From a virus: 24,424 bases of DNA. The notes beneath the pieces are model-generated. The model was not told the origin of the DNA. It was given only the letters and a program-made list of their open reading frames with translations, and made no database searches. Of this stretch, positions 5-24,200 are shown one piece after another. The translations under genes were made by a program, and so were the position numbers. The stretch spans positions 1 to 24,424 of IMG/VR virus record IMGVR_UViG_3300034101_000838, one strand, 5' to 3'. Every line of letters begins with the position of its first letter. Position 1 is the first letter of the stretch.

Positions 5-193
5 TTGGCTAAGGACGGAGAACAAGTTAAGTTGATCCGCTTTGGTCAGCAAGGTGTTAAAGGTTCGCCAAAGAAGGAAGGCGAGTCCGAGTCGTACAAG
101 AATCGCCGTGAGTCCTTTAAGGCACGTCACTCCAAGAACATCGCAAAAGGAAAGATGTCTGCGGCTTATTGGGCAGACAAGGTTAAGTGGTGA
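5..193 (+). CDS. Small basic protein, unknown function
   Basis: A 62-aa Lys/Arg-rich protein with no membrane segment or signal peptide. Its C-terminal half (YKNRRESFKARH, then KMSAAYWADKVKW) resembles short SFxARH...AAYW...W proteins that I remember from other phage genomes, where their function is unknown; this is recall, not a search. The start used is TTG, only four bases into the window, so an upstream in-frame start cannot be excluded and no ribosome site is visible. Its stop overlaps the GTG of the Dps gene (GTGA), so the two are probably one translationally coupled unit. It is one of only two rightward genes here. The basic charge would suit nucleic-acid or virion binding, but that is speculation. 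Confidence 0.7.
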   Translation: MAKDGEQVKLIRFGQQGVKGSPKKEGESESYKNRRESFKARHSKNIAKGKMSAAYWADKVKW

Positions 194-624
194 GCGCTTT
201 TACCAACGATCTAAAGACCCTTTTGGCTGACGTAGTGACTATGTCATTCGTTGCTCAGGGTTACCACTGGAACGTCGAAGGTCCGGACTTCAGCCAATAC
301 CATGCGCTGTTCGGTGAAATCTATGAAGACGTTTACAGTAGCGTAGACCCGATTGCTGAGAACATTCGCAAGATGGATGAATACGCACCATTCACTCTGA
401 GTAAGTTTGTTGACCTACGCACAGTTGAGGCTAAGGAAGTCAGCCCGAATCCAAAGGCTATGGCAGAGGCCCTTCTCAAAGTAAACGAGGACGTTCTTAA
501 GACAATTCGTAAAGCCTTTGAATCGGCGGTCAAGGCTAAGGAAGATGGTATTGCTAACTTCCTAGCGGAGCGTGACGACATGCATAAGAAGTGGCACTGG
601 CAACTAACGGCGAGTACTAAGTAA
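190..624 (+). CDS. dps: Dps-like ferritin (DNA-protection / iron storage protein)
   Basis: A 144-aa four-helix ferritin-like protein. Dps dodecamers oxidise Fe(II) with H2O2, store iron and can coat DNA. The intersubunit ferroxidase ligands are intact: numbering from the upstream GTG at 187, they are H27 (in GYHWNVEG), H39, D54 and E58. Their 12/15/4 spacing equals that of E. coli Dps H51/H63/D78/E82. The C-terminal helix keeps the usual H-K-x-W pattern (MHKKWHWQL). There is almost no N-terminal tail before the first helix, so the Lys-rich DNA-binding extension of some Dps proteins is absent. Two GTG codons in tandem are possible starts; the second overlaps the upstream TGA and is used here. 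The last 21 nt run antisense into the 3' end of the leftward Rossmann/SAP gene. Very likely an active ferroxidase; DNA binding is uncertain. Confidence 0.92.
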   Translation: MSAFTNDLKTLLADVVTMSFVAQGYHWNVEGPDFSQYHALFGEIYEDVYSSVDPIAENIRKMDEYAPFTLSKFVDLRTVEAKEVSPNPKAMAEALLKVNEDVLKTIRKAFESAVKAKEDGIANFLAERDDMHKKWHWQLTASTK

Positions 625-6724: not shown

Positions 6725-8389
6725 TTAATCCTCCGCTGGTCGTTGACGTAAAGTAATAGGTGGATAATCTCCACCCCACGGCTTTAAATCCCGTTGTTCG
6801 GTATAGTTTAAAGTCCATTCACCATAAGCCTGCTGTTCAGCGATTATAGAACCAGCAATGTCTGAAGATACTTCAAAGTCACAAGTAAAAGTAATTTTAT
6901 ATTTTGCATCATTGTCTTCATCCGGAATAGTTAAAGCATTAACTAATCTAGTGGTCTGTAGTTTTAGAGTCCGAGTATCACCATTACTATCAGTTAAGTC
7001 ACCTTTATTAAATCCTGAAGTTGTTTGAGCGTCAACAATTACGCCTAGGTTTTGATATGGATCAGGTTTATAGAAAGCACCCTTTGGTAGCGCTCTTCCT
7101 AGATACTCAATAATTAAACGTGCATTTGCCGTTATGTCAGTTATTGTGCCATTACTTATGTTGTCATCAAGTTCTTGAGTGGCTTTTGTTCTTAAATATA
7201 TAAATTCTGCAAAGTCGTCTCCTGTGTCATCATCGAACCCGTATGTTCCAAAACCAAATGATGACAAACCGATGGGCTTGTTTGTATTCTTTGCGCCGGG
7301 TGAGATGTCGGTGTCCCTCCCCTCTTTAACCCACTGGAATAGGTTTTTACCGAGTTCCTTGGCGGCTTGTGCTTGTTGCTCTTGTAATCCAATAGCCTCG
7401 TCAACAACTTGATCAGCAATCTCAAACGACTTAGTAAGGAACGTATCTTTACGAGCATGTCCAATGTAAAGAGCCTGCATAGTAACGTCTATAAAACATT
7501 GAACTGGAACCATGCTTGGACTGAACTTGTTGAATACAACTTGAGTATTAGTAATGTATCCCTCTACCATAAATAAAGAAGAAAAGACCACACGCACAGG
7601 ATTGGAAATCAAGAAAGCGGCGTTACCAAAGTTGGCATTTAATATGTTGCTTGCTTGATCTGTGTCAAAATCCTGCGGTCTTGGGGGCGCTTCCTCTGAA
7701 TCAGCGTAAGTCAAATCGTATTGCGCTTGACTGTACTTGCGGTACCGTTCAGCACGTGTATTTAAATAGTTAACAAGGTCGCTGTTAATACCTTGACCGA
7801 TAATGCTGTCAAACACCATAACGTCAGCAAGAACGCCAATATCAGTCGCAGATGTATAGTTAATATAGTTGTCACTTGCTTTATTTGTAGAGATGTCTAA
7901 CTCTTGGCTACCTTGTCCAGCATCTACAACAATTTTACTACTAGTGCTGTTATCAAAACTATAAGTACCGCTGTACACATCTGGCTCACGATTAAACAAC
8001 AATCGAAAACCAAAGTTTGAGTCACCCGGAATTGGTTGTGTTAACTGTTCTGGTGATTGGTTCATCCACATTTGGATGTCGTTACGAGCGGTAACGCTTC
8101 TTGTAATAGAGTCGGGATTGAACTGAAAATGTAGGCGCTTGCGCTCCAAAGAGTTATCGGTGATCAAGTCGTTCTTTGGCAAAACCATACGAATATAGCC
8201 ACGCTGTAGTTTTACAGACGTCCCAGTAGCGGAGTTTTTAAGGTACTTAGAAGGATAGATAAAAGGAGGGTTGTCTCCGGCAAGAACTGTTTGCTCTTCA
8301 CCGACGTTAAATACTCCGGACTCGTATTCAGCAAAGTTATAGAAAGTATTAAGGGCGTAACGATCTACTGTTTTCGGGGTGTCTGCCAT
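6725..8389 (-). CDS. CIS tube-initiator-like baseplate protein (Afp7 N-terminal type)
   Basis: A 554-aa protein. Residues about 60-115 read VKLQRGYIRMVLPKND then LHFQFNPDSITRSVTAR. This 'F.FNP.si..s' signature belongs to the CIS tube protein N-terminal domain of Afp7/Pvc7 and related phage baseplate proteins, which start the inner tube on the hub. A second conserved-looking block occurs at FSSLFMVEGYITNTQVVFNKFSPSMVPVQCFIDVTM. The family normally repeats this fold and ends in LysM; here LysM is the separate gene immediately downstream. A long middle segment (about 310-440) is polar, Asp/Gln-rich and probably helical or flexible, making this longer than typical Afp7. The start shares a base with the tape-measure stop (TAATG). 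Confidence 0.82.
   Translation of the reverse strand: MADTPKTVDRYALNTFYNFAEYESGVFNVGEEQTVLAGDNPPFIYPSKYLKNSATGTSVKLQRGYIRMVLPKNDLITDNSLERKRLHFQFNPDSITRSVTARNDIQMWMNQSPEQLTQPIPGDSNFGFRLLFNREPDVYSGTYSFDNSTSSKIVVDAGQGSQELDISTNKASDNYINYTSATDIGVLADVMVFDSIIGQGINSDLVNYLNTRAERYRKYSQAQYDLTYADSEEAPPRPQDFDTDQASNILNANFGNAAFLISNPVRVVFSSLFMVEGYITNTQVVFNKFSPSMVPVQCFIDVTMQALYIGHARKDTFLTKSFEIADQVVDEAIGLQEQQAQAAKELGKNLFQWVKEGRDTDISPGAKNTNKPIGLSSFGFGTYGFDDDTGDDFAEFIYLRTKATQELDDNISNGTITDITANARLIIEYLGRALPKGAFYKPDPYQNLGVIVDAQTTSGFNKGDLTDSNGDTRTLKLQTTRLVNALTIPDEDNDAKYKITFTCDFEVSSDIAGSIIAEQQAYGEWTLNYTEQRDLKPWGGDYPPITLRQRPAED
6730..6734 (-). promoter_or_regulatory. Ribosome binding site deciding the LysM start
   Basis: GGAGG on the minus strand sits inside the last codons of the preceding gene (GCG GAG GAT TAA), ten bases before GTG at 6719. 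It argues for the short 84-aa form and against the longer frame starting inside the preceding gene. Confidence 0.7.
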
Positions 8390-10839
8390 TACGACTTCCT
8401 CATCATTGCTAGTTTCATTTCACGTTCAATAACTTTAACCATTTCTTGAGCAACACGTTTACCGTCAGTGTCTGTGCTACCAGAGGAAGTGATGTGGAAA
8501 GTGGGCGATACCGATATGTTGATATCCCCACTTGTCGTTGTAGTCCCAGCCATTGGATACGGTGTAGTAAATGAATAAGGCTGTGGGTCTCCAATACTCA
8601 TCATCCTCATCTGGTCTCGGTAGTTCATTTGAGAATAGATAGGGATTCTCTTTAATTGTGTTGCCAATGGTTGGTTTGAACTTTGACCAGAAGTCATGTA
8701 TGACGACCCACTAGTTGTTACACTTCTTTTAGATGGTGAACTGCTCGTACCACCAGCAGATGTAATCTGAGTGCCATGGGGTGACACACCAGACGCAAAA
8801 GCCTCTTTTACAAATGGAGATTGGTACGTTTTAGAAGCAGGGTTCTTGGACTTAAATGCTTCATACTGTTCCATACCAGTCTTGGAATAACCCTCAACTT
8901 GACCAAAAATACCAAGACCTGCAAACGAGTCGGGTAACTCAGTTGGTTGGAGGTGCCAATCTTCACCGTTCTCGTCACGGAAATGGCGTAGACCATACTG
9001 TGGGTTTTTGTCAATGAACTCCGCCAGCCTCGCAGTCTCTCCAAACATGTCGATTGCAAAACCAGCCTCGTGCATGGACTGTCCGGGTGGTGCATATGGC
9101 ACAGCACCAGCCTTCAATTTGTAAGGCTTTCCTTCAAAGGTCCAGTCTGCTTCTTCTCCTGCCTTGGCTGGTTGGTAGCGCTTTAGAAATTCTTCTTTTG
9201 AATTGGTTCTATAACCAGTACCAACACCTACGTGAATACCTGACGCTAGTGCATCTCTGAGAAGGTTAGAAACACGTGCTTGCATTGTCGGGTCCATGTT
9301 TCCAAAACTGGACCATTTGTTTAGTTGGCTCAGTGGATATGCCTTTGCAAGACTAAACCCAATCGGAACTTGTGGATCAGGAGTTGAGTACATGCCAGTG
9401 GTGGGTTTAGTGGTGGGCTTAACAGTACCTGCTGGTCTGGTTGACCTTGATCTACCTAATGGTGGGTCACCAAATGTGGCGGCGGCTCCAGCCCCAATTA
9501 CGAATGGAGCAAAAGGAGCGGTTGGTGCGAAGAATCCCATCGCCGCTCCACCAATCATTGCGGCCCCACCAAGAACCTTCTTACCAATATTGAAAAGTGG
9601 ATTATTACGTTGGTTAAGGCGAGCGCCAATAAGACCTGATAGTCGGTCCTCAAGAGCCGCAAATGCGTTGATGAGTCTCTGTGTTTGTTCCTCTAATTTG
9701 GCGTAGTTATCCACTTGCCGACTGTAGAAGCGCTCATTTCTTTCTTGGGACGTCCTTTGGGTCTCTTCAAATTGTGTAGCAAAGTTGTCCTCAATCCCCA
9801 TACGACGACGGTCCGCATCACGGGACGGGTCGTACATTCCAGAGCCACCTTTTTTCTTATAATTAATGTTGGCTTGGGCGTACTGCAAAAGCATGTTCTG
9901 CATGTCTTCCGGCAACCCATATGCGGCTAGACGTGCTCTGGTGACCGATCCAATTTGCATGGCACCTTTAACAACGCTTTCATTGGTAAGACCAGCGCCT
10001 TGAACAATGTCTTGGAATACCTTGAGCATGGGTCGTTGCCCACCACCAATGCCATACATACCAGTACCAAGGGTCATTGTTAGTCGGTTGTTGACCGCAG
10101 GATTAGCCAATGTAGCCATGGCCTGTGTAAGGTCCTGAGCGCTGTACATGTAGCCTGTAGCGGCTCGTAGGGCCGATACAGAGGAAGCCTGATTACTTGC
10201 TAGAAGACCTGTTTGTGCTTGTAACCCTAATAGCGCATTCATTCCGCCTTCGCCAAGGCGCTGGTCGACTAATGGTCGACGTAGTTTGTCAATGTATTGG
10301 CGCTGGCTAATACCCATGGTCTGCTGAAACAAGACAGCAAGACGATCATTGGCAAGCATTTCTCCGTATGCGGAATCAATACGGTTATCAATGGCGCCAA
10401 TGGTTCCGCCAACTATTTTCATAACGCCGTCAGCCGCCGCCATGTAGCCCCCGGCTTTGCCCATAAAGTTTTGGAACTTGCCAGAAGCAGGGGCGCCATC
10501 CGGGGTGGTAGTTCCTTGGGCTTGTACTTTTGTAGTACCAGTTTTATTTACTGTAGAAATTTGATTAGCGGTAGTAGTGGTGGATTTGCTTAAACCAGTA
10601 CCTAAACCAGAAGAGGCTTGACCAGCATCTCCCAGCGCCTTAGCAAGGTCAGAAACTTGGGTGATTACACCATCAAGATTCTTTTTAAGCCATTCAACAT
10701 CGGTGCGTATGGCTTTAAAACCAGTAACGACCTTGTTCATGCCTTCGGCATCAACCTTGAATTTAGTGCGGACGTCAGCCATCTTGCCGCCACTGGAGCG
10801 ACCTGCTAGACCTCCGTCTGACGCACTTTTCTCTGCCAT
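8389..10839 (-). CDS. Tape measure protein with M15 (VanY-type) peptidase domain
   Basis: An 816-aa protein placed, as expected for a tape measure, after tube and chaperone and before the baseplate. The N-terminal part is helical and Gln/Ala/Gly-rich. Residues about 420-460 are a hydrophobic Gly/Ala stretch (GAAMIGGAAMGFFAP...). Residues about 510-640 form a zinc D-Ala-D-Ala carboxypeptidase/endopeptidase of MEROPS family M15. They include VGTGYRT, then SMHEAGFAIDMFG with H590 and D597, and GEDWHLQP with catalytic-type E626 and ligand H629. Tape measures often carry wall hydrolases that open peptidoglycan during ejection. The last about 170 residues are Ser/Thr-rich and end in a charged helix. 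The ATG follows GAGGAAG about ten bases upstream, within the end of the small frame before it. Confidence 0.9.
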   Translation of the reverse strand: MAEKSASDGGLAGRSSGGKMADVRTKFKVDAEGMNKVVTGFKAIRTDVEWLKKNLDGVITQVSDLAKALGDAGQASSGLGTGLSKSTTTTANQISTVNKTGTTKVQAQGTTTPDGAPASGKFQNFMGKAGGYMAAADGVMKIVGGTIGAIDNRIDSAYGEMLANDRLAVLFQQTMGISQRQYIDKLRRPLVDQRLGEGGMNALLGLQAQTGLLASNQASSVSALRAATGYMYSAQDLTQAMATLANPAVNNRLTMTLGTGMYGIGGGQRPMLKVFQDIVQGAGLTNESVVKGAMQIGSVTRARLAAYGLPEDMQNMLLQYAQANINYKKKGGSGMYDPSRDADRRRMGIEDNFATQFEETQRTSQERNERFYSRQVDNYAKLEEQTQRLINAFAALEDRLSGLIGARLNQRNNPLFNIGKKVLGGAAMIGGAAMGFFAPTAPFAPFVIGAGAAATFGDPPLGRSRSTRPAGTVKPTTKPTTGMYSTPDPQVPIGFSLAKAYPLSQLNKWSSFGNMDPTMQARVSNLLRDALASGIHVGVGTGYRTNSKEEFLKRYQPAKAGEEADWTFEGKPYKLKAGAVPYAPPGQSMHEAGFAIDMFGETARLAEFIDKNPQYGLRHFRDENGEDWHLQPTELPDSFAGLGIFGQVEGYSKTGMEQYEAFKSKNPASKTYQSPFVKEAFASGVSPHGTQITSAGGTSSSPSKRSVTTSGSSYMTSGQSSNQPLATQLKRIPIYSQMNYRDQMRMMSIGDPQPYSFTTPYPMAGTTTTSGDINISVSPTFHITSSGSTDTDGKRVAQEMVKVIEREMKLAMMRKS

Positions 10840-18811: not shown

Positions 18812-19921
18812 TCAGGAAATTGCGCCACCGAGAGTGTTTATGATGACACGGGACTCGTGGGTGATTACACCGAAGCCCCAGATTGCGTACCACGAGAGAC
18901 CATGCTCACGACCGAAGTCGATCACACCACCGTCACGCAGTTCAACCGGGAGGGCAATTGCCTGACCAAAGGCATTGTCACCGATCATGATTGCGTTGAA
19001 GGCGTCGGCGTTCTCTTGGAAGCCAGCGGAACCGCTGGTGTCAAGTTCCGAACCGAGGCCGAACAGCGGAGCGGTGCTTGCTGTAGCGTCAAGGCCCTTT
19101 GCCACCTGAGTGGTTTCGATGAACACGACGTCGTAGATACGACCGATTTCACCAAGCATGAAGTTGCCGGGAGCGGCGTACTTCGTGACTTCGATGAACT
19201 CAGGCCAGTCACGGAGCGAACGTGCCTGCGCCGGGTGAACGAAGCAGACGTAGGTGTCGCCAAGACGTGGGATGTTCTGGCTGGCAAGAACTTCAACTGC
19301 GTCCTTAATAGCCGCAGGTGAGAGGTAGCCGGGAGCAGAAGCCGAACCAAGGGTTCCAGCGTCGTATGGGCTGATGGAGCCACGGCTTGCGGCGGCAGTG
19401 CGACCGAACACAACGCTCGGTGCAACAGCGGCACCACCAGAGAACGGAACACCAGCCTTGTAGAGGGTGTTACGAGCCTGAATGTCCATGCTCTGTGCCA
19501 TGTGACGACCGAGGAGACGTGAAGACGAAGCCATGACGTCGTCGAACGATGCGTTGAGCAACAGTTCGGTGACGGCAACAGCCTGACCCTGTTCCTTGAC
19601 GGTGATCTGAATCTGGCTTGCGCTGAGTGCCACAGGCTCCATACGAACACCTTCGGTCAGTTCTGCACCAGTTGACTGGTCGACTGACAAGTTGCTGTAA
19701 CGCACGAAGTTGATTGTGAGACCCGGCATAACGCCAAGTTCAGTCTTCTTAACTGCGAACTGCTCAAAACGAAGAATTGGCATCGCTTGGAACAGGATTT
19801 CCTTAGACCAGATGGTCTGAATTGCTGGGGAGAGGGTTGCATCACTTGAGTAACCTGTCGTGCTGATTGCACTAAGGTCGGCACCAGTGATTGCGCCTCC
19901 TACGGGACCGGGAAGGGCCAT
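18812..19921 (-). CDS. Major capsid protein (N4-gp56-type, HK97 fold)
   Basis: A 369-aa shell protein. The order is that of the N4-gp56 family: an N-terminal DLSAISTTGYSSDATLSPAIQ, the spine-helix region IWSKEILFQAMPILRFEQF, and a strand block LGVMPGLTINFVRYSNLSV. Then come TEGVRMEPVALSASQIQITVKEQGQAVAVTELLLNAS and the long helix SSSRLLGRHMAQSMDIQARNTL. The C-terminal half contains AIKDAVEVLASQNIPRLGDTYVCFVHPAQARSLRDWPEF, typical of the axial/peripheral domain. No delta-domain or obvious cleavage site is seen at the N-terminus. Codons end in C or G more often than in the baseplate genes, consistent with selection for high expression. GGAGG nine bases upstream supports the start. Scaffold precedes it and a stable hairpin follows. 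Confidence 0.92.
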   Translation of the reverse strand: MALPGPVGGAITGADLSAISTTGYSSDATLSPAIQTIWSKEILFQAMPILRFEQFAVKKTELGVMPGLTINFVRYSNLSVDQSTGAELTEGVRMEPVALSASQIQITVKEQGQAVAVTELLLNASFDDVMASSSRLLGRHMAQSMDIQARNTLYKAGVPFSGGAAVAPSVVFGRTAAASRGSISPYDAGTLGSASAPGYLSPAAIKDAVEVLASQNIPRLGDTYVCFVHPAQARSLRDWPEFIEVTKYAAPGNFMLGEIGRIYDVVFIETTQVAKGLDATASTAPLFGLGSELDTSGSAGFQENADAFNAIMIGDNAFGQAIALPVELRDGGVIDFGREHGLSWYAIWGFGVITHESRVIINTLGGAIS

Positions 19922-19959: not shown

Positions 19960-20754
19960 TTAGAAACGACCTCGGTTGGGTCGTGATTGAAGGAGCCTGT
20001 CTCGCATCTTTACATACTGATCCATCGGCATATTGCGGATATCATCCGCTGTCAGAGTTTGGTATTCCGTTTGAGTTTCCATTGGCCCAATGGGGGGTGC
20101 CGTTGGAGACACTCCCCTCAGTCGACCCTGCTGTTGCTGAGTCGCCTGCTGGATAGAATCAATAATAGCAGAACTGCGTTCACGAAGTACTGCGATTGAA
20201 TTTTCAATCTCTTCTTCCGTGTTACCAGAAACTAAATCAATTAACTCTGGAATGATGTTTTCCTGCTCTTCAGACACACGACGACTTGCGTAGGAACTGA
20301 TTTCCTGAAGTCGGCGTTCTTTTTCTAGCAAGGCTTCCTGTTGGGTGCGCTGTGCTTCAATTTCCTCAAAGCGACGGCGGTAATCCTGATCAATTGCCTC
20401 AAGTTTTGAGTTGAACTCGTCCTCACGCTTACGAAGAAGGTCCTTAGCGGACAGTTCTGCTTCCTCACGCTGGCGGATCAATTCCTGCTCATTACGGGCC
20501 TTATCTTCGGCTTCTTTACGAGCGGCCTCTCGCTCTGCGGAGAGTTCTGCCATCTGCTCTTCCATGCTCTTGACACGGACGTCAGCCTCTTCAATGCGCT
20601 TGTAGAGTTTGTCCTTCTCTTGCTGACGGATTCTCTCTACCTCGTCTTCGGTAAAAACCTTGCCCTTGGGCTGTGGGTTTGTTACCTCGTCGTGACCCTG
20701 CTCAAAGGCAGGGACAATTACGATGTCCCCTTCGGGGACGTTGGTCTTAGCCAT
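19960..20754 (-). CDS. Capsid scaffolding protein (coiled coil)
   Basis: A 264-aa highly charged protein between portal and capsid genes. Residues about 35-165 are an almost continuous coiled coil (VERIRQQEKDKLYKRIEEAD, MAELSAEREAARKEAEDKA, LLEKERRLQEISSYASRR). A less charged helix IPELIDLVSGNTEEEIENSIAVL follows, then a Gln/Pro-rich linker and a short C-terminal helix-basic tail (NMPMDQYVKMRDRLLQSRPNRGRF), which in scaffolds typically binds the capsid protein. No protease domain is fused. It has a GTGAGG site and a 49-nt leader with an AATAAATA box. It should guide prohead assembly and then be expelled or degraded. Confidence 0.85.
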   Translation of the reverse strand: MAKTNVPEGDIVIVPAFEQGHDEVTNPQPKGKVFTEDEVERIRQQEKDKLYKRIEEADVRVKSMEEQMAELSAEREAARKEAEDKARNEQELIRQREEAELSAKDLLRKREDEFNSKLEAIDQDYRRRFEEIEAQRTQQEALLEKERRLQEISSYASRRVSEEQENIIPELIDLVSGNTEEEIENSIAVLRERSSAIIDSIQQATQQQQGRLRGVSPTAPPIGPMETQTEYQTLTADDIRNMPMDQYVKMRDRLLQSRPNRGRF

Positions 20755-20800: not shown

Positions 20801-20808
20801 TATTTATT
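20801..20808 (-). promoter_or_regulatory. AATAAATA box (late-promoter-like)
   Basis: The minus strand reads GAATAAATAG across the portal stop codon, 46 nt before the scaffold ATG. The same octamer precedes the neck genes at 15188-15195 at nearly the same distance (49 nt). It could drive scaffold and capsid expression, but the evidence is a short A/T-rich match only. Confidence 0.3.
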
Positions 20809-22492
20809 CTTCATTTGGCACACGACGCTGGGCGAACCGAGCACCGTATGCTTTTGAGACAATTTGGTTCATCAGGTTTTCTTCAATTTGGGGGAGTGCC
20901 CCCATGCCGGGGAGTGGACCCTCGTTAGGGTTTCCTTCTCCAGCAGGAGTTACATTACCACTTTCTTGACCTGCTGGTTGAGCACCATTAGGAACCATTC
21001 CGGTGGTCATCATAACTGCCATCTGTATTTGGGCATTGAGCATGTCAAGTGCCCCTTGATCAAGTGCGTCGTCACGAAGTTCCTCAAAGATTTCAAGCAT
21101 CTTCTCGTTCGGGAACTCTTCGCCAAGAGAACGCAGTGCGCCACGCTTGGATTCAAGGCCAAGACCCATCTTCGCTTGAACCTCATTAAGTTTGATAAGA
21201 ACATCGACAGGCAACGGCTCGGGCCAGTGGATTTCTGTTCTGTAAATCAACGGGTCCCGTGGATCAAGTTGTGTCAACTGGTCTGGCTCTGGTTGAGCCG
21301 CAATCATTGGGTTGTACTGCAACATTTCCGGCTTAAATACCGCCGCAGTACGGATAACGATTTCGTTGATTCTTTCTAGACCTTTTGTGAAGTGGATTTT
21401 CTTCATCATGTAGCGGTTCATCAAAGGCTGATATTGAATAGCCAATGCAACGCCTGAAGTGTTGGAAACGGGCTGGAACTGACCTAAGGCGGTCTCGGGA
21501 ACGCCTGTAATTTCATGCATTGTGCGCTTAATAACATTTACGTATTCAAGAGCGCCTGCCATATTGCCCTTAGATTCAAGGTTAAAAACGCTGGCGTCTT
21601 TAGGAAGACCTGCCCAAACCTTCTTAGGACCACGCTCCAACTGACTTGCTTTAGCACCAGTGATGATGGTTACAGGTGCGGCGTGGTAGTTGATGATGTC
21701 AGATACTTCGAGCATCTTTTCGTTCAACTCACGGTTCAGCGGTATTACGTCCCACACGTCGCTTTGTCCCCAAGGGGATGAAGAGATTGTTGTGTTTGGA
21801 ATATGTACTATCGGAATAGTGCCGATGGCGTTCGGGTACTCGTCGATCAACTCATCATTGATGAACTGCTGAACGCTGTCTTCAGAAAGTATTTCAGTAA
21901 AGGTGTATACCTGACGTGTACCTTCAGGAGAAGTTCCCCAAAAACGGTACTTAAGTTTAAACCTGAGCAAACGATCACGGTCGTGTGGGTGGTACTCAGG
22001 GAAGCAGTGCGCCGGGTTCAACGGGATAATACGGATGCGACCTTCGTGACCAAGTCCGATGCTGTCAACGTAAGGCTCTTCGTATGCAACCTTAACGAAG
22101 CAGTCTCCAGTGACTGATGCCAACTGTCCCATTTCCCAAAGGACATAGTGTTTGTTGTTGTCCACTTCCCAGACATTGTGAAGTAGGTGAGGGATGATTG
22201 CGCCATTCTGCTCGGGCACACGGAATTGAATGCCCTTACCAAAACAGAAGTTTGTAATGTAATCCGACAAAGTGCGGACATAGTTCATGTAGAACTGAGA
22301 TTCGCCCATCTCCCTGCGGTACGACCAGTGGTGCCCCAAATACCACGCCCAAGCCGCTGAATAGCGGTTAAGACGGGGGCCGTGGACTTCAAACTCTTCG
22401 TCAGCAAGTTCAACAAGACCAAGAGGGGATATGGCAACGGTGAGGTCACTCGAAGATGCTCGGTATGATGGTGACCAAAAGTCAATAGCCAT
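20804..22492 (-). CDS. Portal protein
   Basis: A 562-aa portal of the SPP1 gp6-like class; the dodecamer forms the DNA entry vertex. Recognisable blocks: AWAWYLGHHWSYRREMG near residue 50, NYVRTLSDYITNFCFGKGIQF, then YVLWEMGQLASVTGDCFVKVAY and RIRIIPLNPAHCFPEYHP. The central helix is preceded by IPIVHIPN and SDVWDVIPLNRELNEKMLEVSDIINYHAAPVTIITG. The crown region follows with MHEITGVPETALGQ, SGVALAIQYQPLMNRYMMKKIHF, WPEPLPVDVLIKLNEVQAKMGLGLESKRGALRSLGEEF. The C-terminus is Gly/Pro/Asn-rich and flexible. Length is normal. It lies just downstream of an unknown 242-aa gene and ahead of the scaffold. Confidence 0.94.
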   Translation of the reverse strand: MAIDFWSPSYRASSSDLTVAISPLGLVELADEEFEVHGPRLNRYSAAWAWYLGHHWSYRREMGESQFYMNYVRTLSDYITNFCFGKGIQFRVPEQNGAIIPHLLHNVWEVDNNKHYVLWEMGQLASVTGDCFVKVAYEEPYVDSIGLGHEGRIRIIPLNPAHCFPEYHPHDRDRLLRFKLKYRFWGTSPEGTRQVYTFTEILSEDSVQQFINDELIDEYPNAIGTIPIVHIPNTTISSSPWGQSDVWDVIPLNRELNEKMLEVSDIINYHAAPVTIITGAKASQLERGPKKVWAGLPKDASVFNLESKGNMAGALEYVNVIKRTMHEITGVPETALGQFQPVSNTSGVALAIQYQPLMNRYMMKKIHFTKGLERINEIVIRTAAVFKPEMLQYNPMIAAQPEPDQLTQLDPRDPLIYRTEIHWPEPLPVDVLIKLNEVQAKMGLGLESKRGALRSLGEEFPNEKMLEIFEELRDDALDQGALDMLNAQIQMAVMMTTGMVPNGAQPAGQESGNVTPAGEGNPNEGPLPGMGALPQIEENLMNQIVSKAYGARFAQRRVPNEE

Positions 22493-22536: not shown

Positions 22537-22549
22537 ACCTATACTAGGT
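22537..22549. repeat. Palindrome ACCTA-N3-TAGGT before the portal gene
   Basis: A perfect 5-bp inverted repeat with a 3-nt spacer in the 56-nt gap upstream of the portal, touching the previous stop codon. A TTGACC hexamer overlaps it on the minus strand and TACAAT follows 14 nt later, too close for a normal sigma-70 pair. Part of the sequence (ACCTAGTAT) recurs at the 3' end of the Ntn-hydrolase gene. It could be an operator or a transcript-end signal; support is weak. Confidence 0.3.
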
Positions 22550-23277
22550 CAAAACAGAGTAGGCATGGAGACTCTCTCAGTGGCCTTTTTCTTTTCTTGT
22601 CGTTCTTTCCGCTGTGCGGTTGCATTTGATCTTTGCGTTTTCAAGTTCTCTTGACGTTTTGCCTCAGTCTCGTCAATGTTTTCCACCATTCCGGGGAATA
22701 TAAACATCCCTTGCCCAACGCCACCTTCAAGTGCCCGTCTCCCGTTACGGTACGAATAACGTGGTTTAGTTAGGTAACCATAAGAAACATGGGTCCCAAC
22801 TGGTGCATCAGATGCCACGTACTCTTCTGGAGTTTCTCCAATTTCAATACCGTGTCCTAGCACTTTTTGTCGTACTTCAGGCTTTGCAAGGTTTACTTCA
22901 GGAACGCCACGATCAAGGTTCCAAATCGCCCACTGGTCTCCGGACATAGCCGCTGAACGTGCTTGGCGTGACCCTTCAGGGGTATCTTTAAAGTTCTTAG
23001 AAACATCCAGAACTCCAGCATCAAATCCATAGTCCGAAGACCTCCATGTACCTAAATACATGGATGGGTTAGAAAACAAATGTGATCTAGACGGGTTTTC
23101 TACAAACGATTCAACTTTTTGAGAAGTTAATTCGTCAATCGGTACGGGTTGCTCGTGCCCCGGAATTGAAACCATTGTGCCACTTGTTGGCACATCACCA
23201 GTGTCTGGTTGGACCGTAAAGCCTTGATCTTTAGTCTTTTCAACAACCTCTTCGGGGTTGTACTTGCGCCTTGGCAT
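22549..23277 (-). CDS. Unrecognised phage protein upstream of portal
   Basis: A 242-aa soluble protein with no membrane segment. Residues about 70-115 read SMYLGTWRSSDYGFDAGVLDVSKNF followed by TPEGSRQARSAAMSGDQWAIWNL, a 'YLG.W....G...LDVS..f..TpeG..aAr..a...nQ...' pattern I recall from uncharacterised actinophage proteins (recall only). The C-terminal 40 residues are a charged helix (EAKRQENLKTQRSNATAQRK) with a short ending VSMPTLF. The start shares a base with the stop of the holin-like gene (TAATG). An assembly or virion role is plausible from its place beside the portal, but nothing in the sequence fixes it. Confidence 0.7.
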   Translation of the reverse strand: MPRRKYNPEEVVEKTKDQGFTVQPDTGDVPTSGTMVSIPGHEQPVPIDELTSQKVESFVENPSRSHLFSNPSMYLGTWRSSDYGFDAGVLDVSKNFKDTPEGSRQARSAAMSGDQWAIWNLDRGVPEVNLAKPEVRQKVLGHGIEIGETPEEYVASDAPVGTHVSYGYLTKPRYSYRNGRRALEGGVGQGMFIFPGMVENIDETEAKRQENLKTQRSNATAQRKERQEKKKATERVSMPTLF

Positions 23278-23561
23278 TACTTCTTCTTAGGGGCAGTCTT
23301 TTTGGTAGCGGCCTTAGCCTTGACTACTTCTTTTTCTACTTCCTCAATAATCTTTGGTGCTTCTTTAGCAATCTTGGCAAGGAAGGAAGCGACGTTCTTG
23401 TCACCAACCATGGTGCTGGCGTAAGCAAGACCTGCCGTAATAATCGGGATAATCGACGCCTGAATAGCAGGGTCAACATTGCCTTTGGCAAGGAAGTAAG
23501 CAACGGCGCCTACAACGACGCCCTTAATAGTCTGGTCAGTTACCTGTGAACCTTTGTTCAT
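23277..23561 (-). CDS. Small two-helix membrane protein (holin-like candidate)
   Basis: A 94-aa protein with two hydrophobic segments (TIKGVVVGAVAYFLAKG and ASIIPIITAGLAYASTMVG). A charged helix (SFLAKIAKEAPKIIEEVEKEVVKA) and a very basic end, TKKTAPKKK, follow. This layout matches class II holins, with a short N-terminus, a hairpin of two helices and a Lys-rich tail. ATG at 23561 is chosen because GGAG lies five bases upstream; the GTG one codon earlier would be only two bases from it. It sits between the Ntn-hydrolase and the 242-aa gene, without an adjacent endolysin. Alternatives are an inner-membrane head-assembly factor or a minor virion protein. Confidence 0.78.
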   Translation of the reverse strand: MNKGSQVTDQTIKGVVVGAVAYFLAKGNVDPAIQASIIPIITAGLAYASTMVGDKNVASFLAKIAKEAPKIIEEVEKEVVKAKAATKKTAPKKK

Positions 23562-23594
23562 CACAACTCCTGTATTAGGGATAAATCAATAATA

Positions 23595-24200
23595 CTAGGT
23601 TTGTATGAATGTGTTAAAAGGCGCTCCTGTGAAAGGATCGAACTTAGAGGCGATCTGAAGGGCTTTAAGGACCGCTGTTTTGGTCTGAGACTGTTGGGGC
23701 TTCTTAGTACCAATTAATACTGATAACGCCCCCAGAGCGTACATAGACCCCGATCCGGTGGCGTATAGGCCAGTGGCGTCGGTGGTCCACGAGTAGTCTC
23801 CGTCAATTATGTAGATGTGCTTATTTACAACTACCAACACCGACGAACTGTGTTGGGCAATGTGCTCTTTGTCTTCCTTACCATCTGGTAAAGAATACCC
23901 CTGAGAATCAAAACAACTTCTAAGAGCCGGGATGAACTTGTTAGCGATGAATGCGTCAAGTTTCTTGCCCTTTGTATTGGGCGGTGGAACTGGTGGTTGG
24001 AACACGTGGTGAAGGATATTGATAGCCCTCATATCACCAGCGGCTCCTAGAAGGTACTTGCCGTTTAGGGCAACCTTGCTAGTTCCTGACCCCATGGACA
24101 TGATCTGGTAAGGGACACCAGACTCATCGGTATAGGAAATACGGGTGTCACACCCTACGACAACAAAACCGTCTCCCTGAACCGCCACCAAGGTAGTCAT
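23595..24200 (-). CDS. HslV/20S proteasome beta-like Ntn-hydrolase
   Basis: A 201-aa N-terminal-nucleophile hydrolase. ATG at 24200 (TGATG overlap with the upstream stop) gives M-TTLVAVQGDG. Removal of Met would expose Thr1, exactly as in HslV (M-TTIVSV), with no propeptide. Counting from Thr1, Asp17 is conserved (VVVGCDTR). The Lys33 equivalent is likely at 41 (TSKVALNGKYLLGAAGD) because of an 8-residue insertion. The late signature YATGSGSMYALGALSVL (GSG at 148-150) is typical of proteasome subunits. It should be a Thr protease or amidohydrolase that assembles in rings. It lies upstream of portal, scaffold and capsid, where a prohead protease is usual, and no other protease candidate is seen there. 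No partner ATPase is visible in this window. Confidence 0.88.
   Translation of the reverse strand: MTTLVAVQGDGFVVVGCDTRISYTDESGVPYQIMSMGSGTSKVALNGKYLLGAAGDMRAINILHHVFQPPVPPPNTKGKKLDAFIANKFIPALRSCFDSQGYSLPDGKEDKEHIAQHSSSVLVVVNKHIYIIDGDYSWTTDATGLYATGSGSMYALGALSVLIGTKKPQQSQTKTAVLKALQIASKFDPFTGAPFNTFIQT

Follow-up and report, generated by a model that had tools for sequence, protein, structure and literature searches.

A proteasome-like threonine hydrolase with an intact active site, probably an optional accessory peptidase of actinobacteriophages

Main finding

We analyzed a 24,424-base virus record (the window), which ends at the side of a metallophosphoesterase gene and a hydrolase gene. The hydrolase is a new and abundant member of the phage proteasome homologues already described in 2021. 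We consider it probable that it is a threonine peptidase of the proteasome family, with its active site intact, that serves actinobacteriophages as an optional accessory and acts in the infected cell. We call it optional because it is absent from closely related phages whose heads are almost identical. The first-pass annotation of the window had assigned the protein to the HslV/proteasome-type Ntn-hydrolases and had proposed it as a substitute prohead protease or, alternatively, as an enzyme that may act on host proteins. The class assignment is supported by sequence, residues and predicted fold, and the proposed role is addressed below.

The hydrolase gene and its surroundings

The open reading frame is complete, from its ATG to the stop codon after 201 amino acids (Table 1). 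Its N terminus reads Met-Thr-Thr, so that Thr2 corresponds to Thr1 of the mature protein. Mature numbering was taken from an alignment to the proteasome beta subunit of Thermoplasma. In this numbering, Asp18 is the equivalent of Asp17, Lys42 is the equivalent of Lys33 displaced by 8 residues, and Gly149-Ser150-Gly151, where the Ser129 equivalent falls, occupies 148-150. A threonine directly behind the initiator methionine, Asp17, a GSG signature near 148-150 and a plausible shifted lysine had all been pointed out in the first-pass annotation, and all four hold. The protein furthermore has Asp188 (Asp166) and Thr191 (Ser169), which that annotation had not named. Among 106 distinct relatives, Thr1, Lys33, the G-S/T-G signature and T/S169 are retained in every one, with no loss of Thr1, and Asp17 (one E) and Asp166 in 105 each. 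Compared to its nearest relative (L005), the gene gave a dN of 0.040 and a dS of 0.99 (dN/dS 0.04), indicating strong purifying selection far beyond chance.

Table 1. Features of the window and, in the last line, the family found in the place of the hydrolase in relatives
Feature	Position	Strand	Evidence or remark
Dps/ferritin-like gene	187-624	(+)	strand opposite to tail genes
816-aa tail protein with internal VanY D-Ala-D-Ala carboxypeptidase domain	8389-10839	(-)	likely a wall-cutting tail part
Major capsid protein, PHROG 1357	18812..19921	(-)	no long N-terminal extension
Scaffold-like protein	19960..20754	(-)	position and coiled-coil look; homologous place annotated as scaffold in Alone3
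SPP1-type portal protein	20804..22492	(-)	profile matches
242-aa protein of unknown function, PHROG 3170	22549..23277	(-)	variably present in this stretch
95-aa protein, next downstream of the hydrolase	23277..23564	(-)	looks like a membrane protein or holin; no match to any family
Proteasome-like threonine hydrolase, 201 aa	23595..24200	(-)	Thr1, Asp17, Lys33, Ser129, Asp166 and Thr169 equivalents present
Calcineurin-like metallophosphoesterase, C-terminal end, cut by contig end	24200..24424	(-)	sequence
98-149-aa slot family	L072:6493-6792, L090:4419-4715, L080:3211-3633 and 18 more loci

The gene upstream of the hydrolase is present in full in L005, where it matches PHROG 20266 and Pfam Metallophos. 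On the basis of these matches, we rejected its identification as an endolysin of a lysis cassette. Its TGA stop (24202-24200) shares one base with the ATG of the hydrolase, and the two genes are therefore probably translationally coupled. Dps-like genes, of which the window has one, also occur in six related loci (L045, L047, L050, L051, L054 and L056), at a distance of about 9-10 kb on the downstream side of the hydrolase.

Predicted fold and closest known systems

An AlphaFold2 monomer model built with 35 natural relatives as input (pLDDT 91.8, pTM 0.88) displays the alpha-beta-beta-alpha fold of the proteasome-like Ntn-hydrolases. Its best match among solved structures is BPH, the betaproteobacterial proteasome homologue (5ovt; Z 19.9, rmsd 2.5, 174 residues), with residue 2 of the model superposed on Thr1 of BPH. 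The archaeal 20S beta subunit, HslV and other proteasomes follow at a Z of about 18-19.5. The structure prediction and superposition suggested by the first-pass annotation thus bear out its choice of fold. Scores less than 1 apart are ties, and therefore the fold alone cannot pick among BPH, HslV and 20S beta. The model has helices at 57-65 and 78-99, followed by a charged loop of about 20 residues (100-119, from H2 to the next strand), which is its least certain part.

At the sequence level, the protein matches PHROG 1040, "peptidase HslV family", over its whole length (E=8e-21), this being its family within the phage library. It also scores above the cut-off of Pfam PF00227 (Proteasome; 27.9 bits, cut-off 22.4), and has the N-terminal threonine nucleophile, Asp17 and Lys33 of that class. 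Against the NCBIfam HslV models it reached 30.9-31.5 bits, below the cut-offs of 157.75 and 137. The fold and the catalytic residues are shared with HslV (ClpQ), but the NCBIfam match is weak, the pore loop is short in HslV and longer here, and there is no hslU neighbor. Indeed, a profile search of five genomes of the window's lineage (G012 and G041-G044) gave no AAA_2 match for an hslU partner. We therefore ruled out HslV proper, with its scores far under the cut-offs and its partner missing. The same lack of AAA_2 in the hydrolase-carrying genomes of the lineage speaks against a dedicated unfoldase. Two carriers of 200 kb do have a gene for an AAA+ ATPase of the Clp type (AAA_2 match, E about 1e-54; L269, G009:163000-167000, and L270, G004:45500-49500), tens of kilobases from the hydrolase, and in these two only it is a possible unfoldase partner.

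BPH (5ovs/5ovt) resembles the hydrolase in more than the fold, since its Thr1 is likewise exposed after the methionine, it has a long loop between H2 and S7, and it is without a known unfoldase. However, the two share only about 20-22% identity, and BPH is a cellular, stress-linked protein with a very acidic loop. For BPH, no ATPase partner has been found and model substrates were not cleaved in reported assays, and its Thr1 binds peptide inhibitors.

Phage proteasome homologues (PPH, AAH, CPH and others) have been described without function or partners (Fuchs, Alva and Lupas 2021; PMC8665760). AAH and the other group I phage homologues, PPH and CPH, are like the hydrolase in their compact subunit, in Thr1-Asp17-Lys33, in the absence of a propeptide, and in being carried by tailed phages without an AAA+ partner (PMC8665760). 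PPH differs in lacking helix H2 at about 140 residues, whereas the hydrolase has H2 and 201 residues and is not a PPH. Distant relatives of the hydrolase occur on rhizobial and Streptomyces plasmids, a taxonomic pattern as expected for AAH. Nevertheless, the carriers here are actinobacteriophages, and no AAH was found in any Actinobacteria-specific phage (Fuchs, Alva and Lupas 2021; PMC8665760). A search of the open literature for HslV-like proteases of phages whose role had been tested found none.

Patchy presence within one head lineage

We examined 80 contigs that had been picked by similarity of the capsid and not of the hydrolase. In 53 of them, with capsids 77-90% identical, the region preceding the portal gene can be seen and hence assessed. 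With the portal-scaffold-capsid order the same throughout, the hydrolase was present in 26 of the 53 and absent from 27, the latter calls resting on IMG/VR contigs of unproven completeness. Protein and profile searches of four hydrolase-less records of 92.8-95.6 kb detected no copy anywhere; hydrolase-carrying records of the window's lineage reach 91.8-97.1 kb.

Most of the contigs without the hydrolase keep the metallophosphoesterase and the portal gene, and the slot between them is filled by a protein of 98-149 amino acids from another family. This family, with the motif W.DAFDGP.GW ... GW and no PHROG or Pfam match, was found at 21 loci without the hydrolase and at none with it, so that the two never occur together. 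Two contigs (L090 and L100) lack nothing but the hydrolase and retain the portal, the capsid, the 95-aa gene and a metallophosphoesterase 79% identical to its L005 counterpart. The 95-aa gene is also often retained alongside the hydrolase.

On the capsid tree, presence and absence of the hydrolase require 3 changes of state, and the nearest capsid relatives of the window, L005 excepted, lack it. No fixed capsid difference separates phages with and without the hydrolase. Besides the hydrolase, three gene families are in 4/4 genomes with it and 0/4 without it, which is most simply explained by shared ancestry. Whenever present in this lineage, the hydrolase adjoins the portal gene, and this constant adjacency could mean that it is expressed late.

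The hydrolase is probably not required for head maturation

The S78 and other phage prohead proteases are unrelated to the hydrolase in fold and nucleophile. They resemble it in having their gene near those of portal and scaffold, a likeness that applies only within the window's lineage. The first-pass annotation had suggested that the hydrolase may stand in for such a serine protease and trim scaffold, capsid or both, and had observed that no conventional prohead protease is visible up to the capsid gene. This observation is correct, but equally so in the relatives without the hydrolase. S78 and S49 proteases gave no match over cut-off in the genomes of the lineage, whether with or without the hydrolase. 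Streptomyces phage Alone3, whose portal, scaffold and capsid are annotated and of the same type, gave none either. The search for S14 covered the first genome set, which includes two lineage members, G001 and G012. A hidden conventional head protease was thus dismissed for the S78 and S49 types, and lacking a protease characterizes the head type as such. The phages SPP1 and P22 assemble with a scaffold and without a protease. By analogy, the head type of the window seems to need none either.

A location close upstream of the portal, scaffold and capsid genes and a lineage devoid of S78 and S49 would fit a maturation enzyme. However, such an enzyme is expected in all phages with the same head, and 27 of the 53 assessable contigs, with capsids 77-90% identical, are without the hydrolase. 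The records of complete size without any copy and the lack of fixed differences between the capsids also argue against this role. Furthermore, the hydrolase coexists with annotated head proteases in other phages. In DSL-LC01, genes annotated as capsid maturation proteases lie immediately before the capsid gene, and the hydrolase is about 30 kb away. Pantoea phage AAS21 has a prohead protease annotated next to its capsid gene, and its hydrolase gene is flanked by those for thymidylate synthase and RNase H. S78 matches over cut-off were also obtained in further IMG/VR carriers. Since the hydrolase is patchy within one head lineage, coexists with head proteases elsewhere and lies mostly outside head regions in other phages, its distribution marks it as dispensable, and we rejected the proposed prohead role as highly improbable.

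Other carriers and genomic contexts

We next considered 113 distinct copies of the hydrolase. Of these, 45 are beside a portal gene, a share that is inflated by the capsid-based sampling, 24 are near WhiB genes, 39 are elsewhere and 5 are cut. The survey of neighborhoods proposed by the first-pass annotation hence confirms the placement beside portal genes for part of the family and contradicts it for the many copies that lie by WhiB or nucleotide-metabolism genes, far from the head genes. In Microbacterium phage Pumpernickel, the hydrolase is next to ThyX, in Tunturi_5 it is near DNA ligase and helicase genes, and in D'Alembert, Arthrobacter phage Pitbull and MTATph1 it lies within arrays of small unknown genes. 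One contig of 267,766 bases (IMGVR_UViG_3300042868_009074) carries two different copies (L012 and L018).

The hydrolase of the window groups with copies from the WhiB context (SH-aLRT 90), whereas its capsid places it in the head lineage. This conflict suggests, with moderate support from the sequence trees, that the hydrolase may have reached the window phage separately from the head genes. WhiB neighbors, together with Streptomyces phages as nearest relatives in capsid and portal, point to actinobacteria as hosts. Similarly, DSL-LC01 was described in its paper as a likely actinobacteriophage on account of its WhiB genes, with no mention of HslV.

A pattern scan of viral metagenomes yielded at least 593 confirmed stretches with the hydrolase. 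The same kind of scan gave one match in about 85,000 species genomes, with two short patterns that distant cellular relatives would escape. This sole match (L157, JAURLY010000091.1) is a contig of a gammaproteobacterial MAG carrying a metallophosphoesterase, the hydrolase and an actinobacterial WhiB, and is probably a misbinned phage.

Proposed function

The best reading of the hydrolase is a probably ring-forming, self-compartmentalizing peptidase similar to BPH and AAH, with putative peptidase activity. Host methionine aminopeptidase would remove Met1 and free Thr1. The subunits may then assemble into a single or double ring that encloses the active sites, as in BPH, and loop 100-119 would line the pore, again as in BPH. 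In this lineage, the enzyme presumably works without a dedicated phage unfoldase, and within the infected cell it would act on proteins of the host or on early proteins of the phage, and not on scaffold or capsid.

As a special case of this accessory peptidase, the hydrolase might be a counter-defense or host-takeover protease that destroys a host defense or regulatory protein, the slot beside the portal being a site of exchangeable accessory genes. The strong constraint on a patchy and apparently exchanged gene, the mutually exclusive alternative in the slot and the WhiB host-control genes that accompany many relatives are consistent with such a role. Against it, PADLOC found no match to a defense-system family, and patchiness alone does not prove defense; we thus regard it as rather unlikely.

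A non-proteolytic Ntn-hydrolase, an amidase or ligase that cleaves or joins an amide bond in a small molecule or a single peptide, was also considered. Connectase, a member of the proteasome-like family, is a ligase, and non-proteases are numerous in the wider Ntn clan; some relatives of the hydrolase lie among nucleotide-metabolism genes, and the inactivity of BPH in the reported assays would be in agreement with this alternative. It is nonetheless improbable, as the full set of proteasome-type residues, D166 and T/S169 among them, is retained, and the fold falls in the group of BPH, HslV and 20S beta, with Thr1 of BPH binding peptide inhibitors.

Returning to the accessory peptidase, we tentatively hypothesize, as a possibility short of an expectation, that a widespread, horizontally exchanged and unfoldase-independent phage proteasome homologue targets proteins of the actinobacterial host and acts as a takeover or counter-defense tool in the slot beside the portal.

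Significance

The present analysis removes a tempting but wrong reading, that of a new kind of prohead protease. The value of the family lies in its number, its intact active site and its natural pairs of phages with and without the gene. Indeed, as the active site is intact and the gene is patchy among close phages, a clean comparison of both kinds of phage and of a T1A mutant is possible. If true, the targeting of host proteins would be the first function for phage-encoded proteasome homologues.
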